This document shows, one piece after another, positions 1 through 1,735 of a stretch of 64,000 bases of DNA (position 1 is its first letter; the number at the start of each line of letters is the position of its first letter). A program made the translations under genes and the position numbers. This DNA is from Gammaproteobacteria bacterium (GTDB taxonomy: Bacteria; Pseudomonadota; Gammaproteobacteria; Steroidobacterales; Woeseiaceae), in the NCBI GenBank assembly GCA_013151645.1, contig JAADHU010000017.1:1-64000 (forward strand). The letters are read 5' to 3'. Under the pieces are notes generated by a model. The model made no database searches. It was not told where the DNA came from and saw nothing but the letters and a program-made list of their open reading frames with translations.

Positions 1-89
<89 letters not shown>

Positions 90-117
90 ATTAAACTTTC
101 CAGTCAATCACTCCCCC

Positions 118-238
118 GAGGGCGGGATTGATTCGGGCCTGCGGCCCTCACCCCTTCGGGGCGCACTGCGTGCGTCCAAATTCGCTACGCGAATTTGTCG
201 AACCCGCGGTACGCTATAAACGCACACTCACTTTCCAG
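118..238 (-). pseudogene. partial tRNA-Ser(GGA) copy interrupted in the T-loop
   Basis: Bases 118-129 repeat 6-17 of the real tRNA exactly, and bases 198-238 repeat 17-57 exactly (41 bp, anticodon loop through T-loop). Between the two halves sit about 68 extra bases. Past 238 only fragments resembling the D-arm remain (CAACCAC, AGCC) and no 5' acceptor strand is seen, so this copy cannot form a normal tRNA. It resembles in spirit the tRNA-tail repeats next to some enterobacterial tRNA genes (the rtT repeats after tyrT), but the internal insertion is different. Confidence 0.8.
130..197. repeat. 68-bp element of four tandem 3-nt-loop hairpins
   Basis: Four consecutive perfect inverted repeats, each with a 3-nt loop: GGGCC/GGCCC (135-139, 143-147), CCCC/GGGG (151-154, 158-161), CGCAC/GTGCG (162-166, 170-174) and CAAATTCGC/GCGAATTTG (177-185, 189-197). 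The block lies exactly where the T-loop of the tRNA-Ser copy is split. No coding potential is expected. The regular design suggests a REP-like or RNA-structural element rather than chance. Confidence 0.75.
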
Positions 239-267
239 CCAACCACAGCCCAAGGGCCGGATCGCTT

Positions 268-522
268 CTAAATCCCTTTCGACTGCAATACCGGCGGCAA
301 ATCCAGGCACGGCGAGCCGTCCGGACGAGCATCTCGAGGCGATGCCGATGGGACGGTCAGTTCCTTGGAAGCCTCTAGCTCGTCCAGATCATCGGGTGCG
401 TCGATTCTTGTTCCCGCGCGCGCCTTTTGGTAGCGCTGCGGGTCATCGCAGGACAGATCCTTGGCGCAACCGGCAAACACGGTGCAGACCATGATTATCA
501 GGGCCAGACCCTTCATTCTCAT
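268..522 (-). CDS. short lipoprotein, possibly BamC-like
   Basis: An 84-residue protein with a lipoprotein signal: basic MRMK, hydrophobic stretch, lipobox VFAGC with Cys19. The ATG at 522 is chosen because a run of seven G lies just upstream; an in-frame TTG at 540 would put that run inside the gene. The mature part is hydrophilic, with APDDLDEL and ELTVP stretches that recall the unstructured N-terminus of BamC. In E. coli bamC lies near gcvR-bcp, which fits, but dapA is absent here and the globular BamC domains are missing. The BamC link is inference; lipoprotein is well supported. Confidence 0.7.
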   Translation of the reverse strand: MRMKGLALIIMVCTVFAGCAKDLSCDDPQRYQKARAGTRIDAPDDLDELEASKELTVPSASPRDARPDGSPCLDLPPVLQSKGI

Positions 523-710
523 AGGTTCCCCCCCGAACAAACGTAAAATTTCAGCATTAGCTGCGTCATTAATTCTCGCCAGAAATCAGCCGGCGATGGT
601 ACTGTTCACATACAGCGCTGGCAAGCCGTGAAACAAACTTCTCGTCGGCCCGTCAGTGGACAGTAACCGTAAACAACACCAGCAATCGAATAAGGTTTTA
701 CATTAATTAA

Positions 711-1241
711 ATGACACAACTTATTGTTTTATCAGTTCTTGGAACAGATCGACCCGGCATCGTCGATGACATAACCAAGGTCATTCTGGCATGCGGCGGC
801 AATATTGACGAAAGTCGTATGACAGCCCTCGGCAAAGAATTTGCGATGTTACTGCTGATTTCCGGCAACTGGCATACATTGAGCAAGCTCGAGGCCAGTC
901 TCGACAAGCTCGCCGCTACCAACAATCTCACGGTCACCATGAAGAAAACCGACCTGCGTGAGGACACCAAAGAATGCATGCCTTATGGTGTCGACATCGT
1001 CTGCCTCGACGAACCCGGCATCGTTTTCAGTCTTGCCAATTTCTTCGCATCACGAAAGATCGAGATTTCGGAGCTCGTAACGCGGCGCTATGCAGCGGCG
1101 CATACCGGCGCCCCCATGTTCTCGTTACAAATGAGTATTAACCTGCCCGGCTCGGTGCACATATCGCAACTGCGGGATGAATTCATGGAAATTTGCGACC
1201 AACTCAATCTCGATGCGCTGCTGGAACCCGTCAAACCCTGA
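711..1241 (+). CDS. gcvR: glycine cleavage system repressor GcvR-like, two ACT domains
   Basis: A 176-residue protein made of two ACT domains. The first begins LIVLSVLGTDRPGIVDDITK (residues 3-22); the second covers about 93-170 and contains DIVCLDEPGIVFSLANFF. In E. coli GcvR binds the LysR-type activator GcvA and, with glycine, keeps the gcvTHP operon off. Length is close to the family (about 180-190). It is followed 26 bp later by bcp, the usual gammaproteobacterial pair. No gcv genes are in the window, but kbl-tdh, another glycine-forming route, is. Confidence 0.88.
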   Translation: MTQLIVLSVLGTDRPGIVDDITKVILACGGNIDESRMTALGKEFAMLLLISGNWHTLSKLEASLDKLAATNNLTVTMKKTDLREDTKECMPYGVDIVCLDEPGIVFSLANFFASRKIEISELVTRRYAAAHTGAPMFSLQMSINLPGSVHISQLRDEFMEICDQLNLDALLEPVKP

Positions 1242-1267
1242 GCAAATAACCACAAGGAGATCTTGCA

Positions 1268-1735
1268 TTGAGTGGACCCACGATGAACCGGGTAGTCGCT
1301 GATTTTAAATGTGCGTCAACCGGAGACAAGACCGTACGGTTAAAAGACCTGCGAGGAAAGAAAGTTATCTTGTATTTCTACCCGAAAGACAACACCCCGG
1401 GCTGCACCACCGAGGGCCAGGATTTCAGGGATCTGTACGCAAAGTTCAAACGCCAGAACGCCATCGTATTTGGTGTTTCTCGCGACAGCCTGGCGTCCCA
1501 TGAAAAATTCAAGGCAAAACAGGGCTTTCCTTTCGATCTGTTATCGGACCCGGACGAGAAGCTTTGCCGGCGCTTCGATGTCATCAAGGAAAAAATGCTG
1601 TACGGGCGCAAATTTATGGGTATTGAAAGAAGCACCTTCCTGATTGATGAGGACGGCAAGCTGCGCGCCGCATGGCATAAAGTCAAAGTGAAAAATCACG
1701 CGCAGGAAGTGCTAGACTCCCTGAAGAAAGGTTGA
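1268..1735 (+). CDS. bcp: thiol peroxidase Bcp / peroxiredoxin Q
   Basis: 155 residues of the AhpC-TSA fold. It reduces H2O2 and organic hydroperoxides using thioredoxin. The peroxidatic cysteine is Cys46 in NTPGCTTEG. The TTG start at 1268 is chosen because AAGGAGA ends 7 nt before it; ATG at 1283 is the alternative. The usual resolving cysteine five residues on is missing (Gln51), and the alternative position used by Xylella PrxQ is Lys82. Cys15 and Cys100 (EKLCRRF) are the only others, so the enzyme may act as a 1-Cys form or use an unusual partner. Confidence 0.93.
   Translation: MSGPTMNRVVADFKCASTGDKTVRLKDLRGKKVILYFYPKDNTPGCTTEGQDFRDLYAKFKRQNAIVFGVSRDSLASHEKFKAKQGFPFDLLSDPDEKLCRRFDVIKEKMLYGRKFMGIERSTFLIDEDGKLRAAWHKVKVKNHAQEVLDSLKKG

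Follow-up and report, generated by a model that had tools for sequence, protein, structure and literature searches.

The window, that is the whole 64,000-nucleotide stretch of gammaproteobacterial DNA analysed here, begins where its contig (C35) begins, at the 3' end of an intact tRNA-Ser(GGA) gene. Upstream (5') of this gene, in the tRNA sense, lies a second and incomplete copy of the same tRNA, which is split by a run of four hairpins. The features of the locus, given in window positions, are the following:

1–89, minus strand: intact tRNA-Ser(GGA) gene (ARAGORN; Rfam tRNA model, 58 bits)
95–104, minus strand: ACTGGAAAGT, leader of the intact tRNA; also present at the anticodon-loop end of the split copy
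118–128, minus strand: 3' part of the split tRNA copy, corresponding to tRNA nucleotides 74–84 (11/11 identical)
129–197, minus strand: four-hairpin block, 69 bp (covariance model R1, 84.2 bits; covariance model R2, 75.9 bits)
135–147, minus strand: hairpin D, 5 bp, loop GCA (from the sequence)
151–161, minus strand: hairpin C, 4 bp, loop GAA (from the sequence)
162–174, minus strand: hairpin B, 5 bp, loop GCA (from the sequence)
177–197, minus strand: hairpin A, 9 bp, loop GTA (from the sequence)
198–238, minus strand: 5' part of the split tRNA copy, corresponding to tRNA nucleotides 33–73 (41/41 identical)

In the tRNA sense the block reads C-hpA-GA-hpB-hpC-TGA-hpD-GAATCA (hp, hairpin); the hairpin limits were read from the sequence, and an automatic parse pairs the middle two slightly differently. 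Direct repeat comparison bore out the description given in an earlier, sequence-only reading of this DNA, namely a tRNA-Ser copy made of two exact repeats, of 41 bp (17–57 = 198–238) and 12 bp (6–17 = 118–129), and cut precisely in its T-loop by four perfect hairpins that all have 3-nt loops. The longer part of the copy runs from the anticodon loop to TTCGA of the T-loop, with the block starting after TTCGA, and the shorter part spans the T-loop end, the T-stem and the start of the acceptor 3' strand. An exact repeat of 41 bp is not chance. Since base 129 can be assigned to either side, the block measures 68 or 69 bp. The same reading had placed the tRNA-Ser in front of the chimera; the two are indeed adjacent, but their order is the opposite one.

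Because the contig begins at window position 1, the CCA end and the downstream side of tRNA-Ser(GGA) are unseen. Repeated tRNA 3' halves downstream would lead one to expect a contig break at this position, but searching the window's own genome for the 3' half of tRNA-Ser(GGA) returned only the window copy and a copy with one mismatch in contig C13, which is the tRNA-Ser(TGA) gene. As for the missing 5' part of the split copy, positions 95–125 and 230–260 form a direct repeat family (D2, 74%), from which we infer that this part was plausibly lost by deletion between the CTGGAAAGT repeat of the leader and its counterpart in the anticodon loop, with 95–104 as the possible deletion point. Further upstream of the split copy lies a small ORF (268–540, minus strand) with a lipoprotein-like start (…VFAGCAKDLSCDDPQRY…), and in relatives, too, similar text can be seen by eye ahead of tRNA-Ser(GGA).

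The RNA fold of the region beats shuffled sequences modestly (z -2.1; 6/200 shuffles equally good), and its minimum-energy RNA structure is not simply the four hairpins. The model of the proteobacterial sRNA sX4 (RF02223) overlaps the intact tRNA and its leader at 48.9 bits, below its gathering score of 70, and what it matches is the intact tRNA-Ser, not the block.

A recurrent, covarying four-hairpin family

The block belongs to a recurrent, covarying family of four-hairpin DNA units of about 70 bp. Two covariance models were used to search for it: R1, built from 25 sequences with the T-loop ends included, and R2, built from 20 sequences without these ends and with none from a record named as Enterobacterales. 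In a whole-genome search with R1 the window block is found at E 4.2e-18. The window's own genome carries four blocks, three of them beside or inside tRNA-like sequence. Apart from the window block, one interrupts a tRNA-Ser(CGA) copy that lies some 160 bp away from the intact gene and retains its 5' part and leader (L002); one lies near tRNA-Pro, with the 3' half of that tRNA on one side (L004); and for the fourth no tRNA was found within the fetched 3 kb (L005).

Plain DNA similarity gave matches in 26 of 60 genomes, 24 of them among the 37 genomes of the window's taxonomic family, and in that family the covariance model places the block in 26/37 genomes. Across the class, R1 detected the block in at least 120 of the 274 genomes sampled and in at least 100 of 222 genera, which, together with the four copies of the own genome, rules out a unique chance event and favours the sequence-only reading, against which a block found only here would have counted. 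In the phylum sample at least 66 of 299 genomes were positive at E 1e-4 (R1), other classes among them; the class and phylum counts are lower bounds, as searches over more than 40 genomes apply stricter filters. A pattern scan of named genomes yielded at least 119 stretches with at least 148 matches and, among the matches listed, these came from a wide range of gammaproteobacterial genera as well as from genomes labelled otherwise; 123 of the 148 have a tRNA on the same strand at most 1.5 kb away. The match search found no block in phages and a single 35-bp block match in plasmids, and viral contigs gave six stretches, none bearing an intact tRNA.

The stems of the block covary strongly, both in the covariance-model alignment and in an independent MAFFT alignment, which favours the element proposed in the sequence-only reading. 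In the MAFFT alignment (25 sequences) 90.7% of the cells were paired and 103 cells had changed on both sides; none of 500 shuffles was as good, and slid controls reached 27–41% paired. For the 84 model hits, whose alignment is fitted to the model, the figures were 97.9% paired and 438 cells changed on both sides, with 0/500 shuffles as good and slid controls far lower.

On the block's sense strand the triloops are GNA in 76/118 cases and TNC in none, C(GNA)G accounts for 68/118 triloops against 1/110 in shuffles, and with hairpin C masked GNA triloops still make up 41/84. Since GNA occurs and TNC never does, the GNA loops belong to the strand on which the block is read 5' to 3'. GNA triloops have been described as forming extraordinarily stable DNA mini-hairpins (PMC4686876). 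We also considered whether the rarity of G-U pairs speaks for structure at the level of DNA: G-U makes up 1.3% of block pairs against 3.6% in a tRNA control, and one-sided G-U changes number 21/459 in the block against 52/540 in that control. Because the tRNA control is itself nearly as low, the scarcity does not decide between DNA and RNA, and the argument was set aside as such and retained as weak support.

Junctions and layouts at tRNA genes

The tRNA association claimed by the sequence-only reading holds for most copies, a same-strand, CCA-ending tRNA lying within 700 bp of 67 of the 84 model hits, but it is not general, as some copies have no tRNA link. In 59 of these 67 cases the hit lies downstream of the tRNA, and the units nearest a tRNA are found 47–118 nt downstream of it. 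The flanks, moreover, resemble the particular tRNA beside which the block lies. Compared with the last 18 nt of the neighbouring tRNA, the 3' flank gave a mean of 14.3 matches against 11.1 with permuted tRNAs (maximum 12.2 in 1000 permutations) and was identical (18/18) to its own tRNA in 26 of the 67 hits, and the left flank resembles the antisense of its own tRNA's T-arm (10.95 against 8.52 when permuted among tRNAs; maximum 9.05 in 200 permutations; 60 hits).

Two layouts recur, and in both an intact tRNA usually stands beside the block. In the downstream layout, which is that of the E. coli RtT repeats discussed below, the intact tRNA is followed by a usually present terminator-like hairpin, a stretch resembling the T-arm antisense, GGTTCGA, the block, the tRNA 3' half and CCA, often in tandem. 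In the upstream layout, that of the window, the order is leader, tRNA 5' part, block, a short 3' continuation, and then leader and intact tRNA. The tmRNA is used too: in L047 (G017:C17) tandem blocks lie downstream of tmRNA at 530–609 and 712–791, with tmRNA T-loop sequence at the junction.

To locate the junctions, R2 was run over 94 loci of the window's taxonomic family, giving 130 hits, or 120 after removal of duplicates and short flanks, and each junction was compared with all the tRNA genes collected, at every position, a score of at least 18 being counted as strong. Strong junctions numbered 59/120, against 0/600 for shuffled flanks; real flanks re-paired at random were strong in 28/120 cases on average, because tRNA arms resemble each other. 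A further 42/120 scored below 14 and had no tRNA match. Among the 59 strong junctions 41 fall in the T-loop, 11 at the D-loop 3' edge, 6 in the anticodon loop and 1 elsewhere. The block thus ends at exact tRNA points, namely after TTCGA of the T-loop, after the anticodon and at the D-loop 3' edge, and the T-loop targeting proposed in the sequence-only reading describes the majority of cases while the other two loops are used as well. Relative to the tRNA sequence the block can lie either way round: 35 of the T-loop junctions are in the sense orientation and 6 are reversed, the reversed ones all in tRNA-Phe. The D-loop-edge and anticodon-loop junctions are all in tRNA-Ser.

The clearest case is L378 (G011), where all three loops of a single tRNA-Ser(GGA) copy hold a block, the copy being divided into tRNA nucleotides 1–22, 25–37, 40–72 and 74–82 with blocks of 68, 81 and 91 nt between them; the third of these is a weak model hit (R1 30.4 bits, R2 24.3 bits). 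In L371 (G006, a single contig) there are tandem copies with the block after the anticodon. Outside the window's taxonomic family 173 of 254 distinct junctions were strong, 170 in the T-loop, 2 in the D-loop and 1 other, in a set that was selected by T-loop ends in the query and is therefore biased to T-loops; of the D-loop pair, one comes from another taxonomic family (G323).

At the level of single bases, GA precedes the block in 90/120 junctions and A follows it in 105/120, so that most read GA-block-A. In 91 distinct tRNA-Ser genes the points of the type GA·A (the dot marking the place of the block) lie in the T-loop (86), the D-loop (80), the anticodon loop (70) or elsewhere (21), which means that the loops hold 236 of 257. 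Because GAA in tRNA-Ser is mostly found in loops, a simple GAA preference would put most insertions in loops, and the 58/59 strong junctions in loops are compatible with such a preference. It accounts for the loop position, not for the use of tRNA genes over the very many other GAA sites. The anticodon loop of tRNA-Ser(GCT) has no GAA (one gene), and no block was found there among 7 strong Ser(GCT) junctions. A general targeting of hairpin loops was considered and found unsupported beyond tRNA, since in the 42 tRNA-unmatched copies the junction is not surrounded by a hairpin (2.69 bp against 2.70 when re-paired).

The occupancy of the tRNA-Ser(GGA) locus was compared with R1 among 16 relatives, which belong to different genera, so that these counts do not tell loss from gain:

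Hit upstream of tRNA-Ser(GGA), 3 relatives: L371, L379, L380
Hit on both sides, 1 relative: L378
Hit downstream, 3 relatives: L370, L373, L375
No hit, 8 relatives: L366–L369, L372, L374, L376, L377
Unclassified, 1 relative: L381 (no intact tRNA in the piece compared)

Three of the relatives with no R1 hit (L368, L372 and L374) show, by eye, a shorter hairpin unit downstream. At one and the same tRNA locus the block is therefore present, absent, upstream, downstream or tandem, depending on the relative.

Copies are also dispersed within genomes. In G012 and G026, units made of a tRNA-Phe fragment plus the block stand at unrelated places with different flanks, and tRNA-Phe fragments without the block also occur. 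In G338, which belongs to another class, high-scoring copies lie at several places within a larger dispersed repeat.

Some individual arrangements are recorded here. The G338 stretches (L311–L320) carry near-identical blocks in a longer dispersed repeat, with cacccgcttaagggtcacagacc common to most, and no tRNA was found in 9/10 of them. On G026:C7 (L227, L228) two blocks stand back to back in opposite orientation (22099 plus, 22187 minus), as they do in L231 and L232, which suggests that one block was stacked beside another. The copies of G026:C7 seemed to lie about 5.3 kb apart, yet an integron-like cassette array was unsupported, as no cassette or recombinase was recognisable by eye in the first 60 residues of each intervening ORF. 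On G010:C13 two very similar blocks with the same orientation (19848 and 66692; L187, L189) are separated by 47 kb; the second carries a tRNA-Arg 3' half, and no tRNA was found in its 19-kb stretch. With regard to a possible genomic island between the two, the ORFs near both ends look metabolic by eye.

Relation to the E. coli RtT repeats

RtT repeats have reportedly been known in E. coli for decades, and we know of no account of their origin. The E. coli RtT units (RF00391) share the architecture of the block family, of which RtT is one lineage and the sole named member found. The two have in common GGTTCGA, the hairpins, CCCGAAGGG-YGA, a last hairpin, GAGT/GAAT, AATCC and a tRNA 3' half to CCA, as well as the tandem arrangement of units beside a tRNA, and one tyrT unit is nearly letter-for-letter the same as the family member L018 over CCCGAAGGGTGAGGAGCGAAGCGACGAAT. 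The tyrT/tyrV stretch examined gave four Rfam RtT matches, with the 3' half being that of tRNA-Tyr. From the other side, R2 detects the E. coli RtT units, both of the two beside tRNA-Ser (E 4e-8) and one of the four at tyrT (E 5e-5).

The window, too, has an RtT-type layout, with four hairpins between GGTTCGA and AATCC of the tRNA 3' half. The Rfam RtT model itself gave no match over window positions 1–1500, either at gathering (45 bits) or at E up to 1; it passed gathering in none of 10 sources from the window and its relatives, and it passes in 2 of 18 loci outside E. coli (L110, L149). The window copy differs from RtT in several ways: RtT lies downstream of the tRNA and includes CCA, whereas the window copy lies upstream, has a 3' part that ends after 11 nt and is preceded by true tRNA sequence. 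Unlike RtT, the family as a whole is found at many tRNAs, at tmRNA and in further loops.

In RefSeq, RtT units are annotated beside tRNA-Ser between ghrA and ycdU, and in L332 (NZ_CP076285) the units beside tRNA-Ser at 977–1294 are annotated as 'rtT sRNA, processed from tyrT transcript', though they are not at tyrT. A query taken from the unit region of Escherichia whittamii had a place covering at least 80% of it in 3,314 of 5,426 E. coli genomes. In a prophage-like viral contig (L182, 11320–11760) two RtT-like units come after the 3' part of tRNA-Ser(GGA), an array that adjoins a probable phage attachment site.

As to earlier descriptions, the relevant passages of PMC7657543 give only a tandem GA motif in RtT, and those of PMC2658671 tabulate a 175-bp variable-number repeat next to rtT RNA. 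Titles and abstract openings of the open-access papers searched revealed no paper on the block family, of which a description elsewhere is possible. A systematic survey of stem-loop repeats is described as having removed tRNA-related clusters (PMC2267715), which may be a reason why the family was missed. Taken together, the evidence supports the mobile or RNA-structural element targeting tRNA T-loops that was first proposed; the element is real, it is larger than was thought, and one of its lineages already has a name.

Candidate origins and their meaning

We lean towards reading the window as a decayed upstream partial copy of tRNA-Ser(GGA) that carries, in its T-loop, a block from a widespread class of non-autonomous palindromic repeats inserting at GA·A. 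In this reading the block, being non-autonomous and palindromic, would spread with the help of a trans-acting enzyme that probably recognises and moves it while it is folded as single-stranded DNA. Its insertion would be coupled with duplication of the tRNA 5' part, as in the window, or of the 3' part and terminator, as in RtT; by such partial duplication, we propose, one functional tRNA survives each insertion. Some lineages, RtT for example, may since have been kept as processed RNA. Against mobility, no transposition was observed and no enzyme was found in this analysis, and the genera of Enterobacterales have RtT-like units at one and the same tRNA-Ser, a pattern with which long vertical inheritance would agree as well.

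The main rival is accordingly a vertically kept, functional RtT-like RNA, in which the units form part of tRNA transcripts as trailer or leader, are kept by selection, act through their hairpins in RNA, and are copied along tRNA loci via tandem duplication and gene conversion. The annotation of RtT as an sRNA processed from the tyrT transcript speaks for it, as do the tight spacing of the nearest units downstream of tRNAs (47–118 nt) and the likeness of the left flank to the antisense of its own T-arm, which would allow a unit to fold back and close, like the RtT structure of Rfam. However, a terminator-like hairpin and a T run are often seen by eye between tRNA and unit, the presence of the block varies among relatives, and the use of three loops, the reversed copies and the copies away from tRNAs are unexpected of a fixed trailer RNA. 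We therefore regard this explanation as serious and yet rather unlikely.

It is improbable that the blocks are palindromes of the REP/BIME type, mobilised by RAYT (Y1) transposases and finding in tRNA one of many landing places. Like these, the blocks are short, palindromic, dispersed and non-coding, they come in arrays and are sometimes paired in opposite orientation, and related blocks lie within larger dispersed repeats in another class (G338). PF01797 co-occurs with them weakly (81/120 element genomes against 81/154 others, p 0.014, kinship ignored), and the window's own genome has one PF01797 hit. But the four hairpins keep a fixed order, the junctions are tRNA-bound, and PF01797 is not obligatory, 39 of the 120 element genomes having no hit; exact tRNA points are, moreover, not among the features of REPs described in the abstract of PMC2817692. 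As the driver, the Y1 transposase is an insufficient answer, its association being weak.

A third explanation, that the blocks are bacterial tRNA introns, inserted in the anticodon, D- and T-loops and spliced from tRNA precursors, is very hard to uphold. The pattern of three loops recalls the positions of archaeal tRNA introns, yet the copies examined (window, L371 and L378) are truncated, lacking the acceptor 3' strand or the 5' part, and have an intact gene alongside, and group I introns are far larger than the blocks. Larger integrative elements that target tRNA genes restore the tRNA 3' part and leave displaced tRNA fragments. Such elements, prophages and islands among them, are like the block units in their use of tRNA genes and in the displaced fragments, and unlike them in other respects, the units measuring about 130–182 bp, containing no gene and having their junctions in several loops. 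Finally, one could suppose that the locus was rearranged by chance or misassembled in this one metagenome-assembled genome, and cite the contig end at or inside a tRNA and the 83 contigs of the genome; this is scarcely credible given the same layout in single-contig genomes (G006), in E. coli K-12 and in 120/274 genomes.

Returning to the reading of the blocks as mobile DNA, we put forward tentatively, as a possibility, a wider form of it. The family would be an undescribed class of non-autonomous mobile DNA of Pseudomonadota. Its blocks would enter tRNA genes while these are single-stranded and folded, at GA·A in their loops and in one orientation or the other, with a duplication that spares an intact tRNA, and RtT would represent domesticated or fossil members of the class. 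If insertion into the folded tRNA gene is true, all three loops of a single gene copy could come to hold a block.

By these results RtT becomes part of a family which nearly half of the sampled gammaproteobacterial genomes contain and which is linked to exact positions in tRNA genes. If movement occurs, the blocks would be a mobile element aimed at tRNA genes as such, in which a partial duplication keeps the tRNA unharmed; even without movement, there is a large class of RtT-like units that stand unlabelled or mislabelled.
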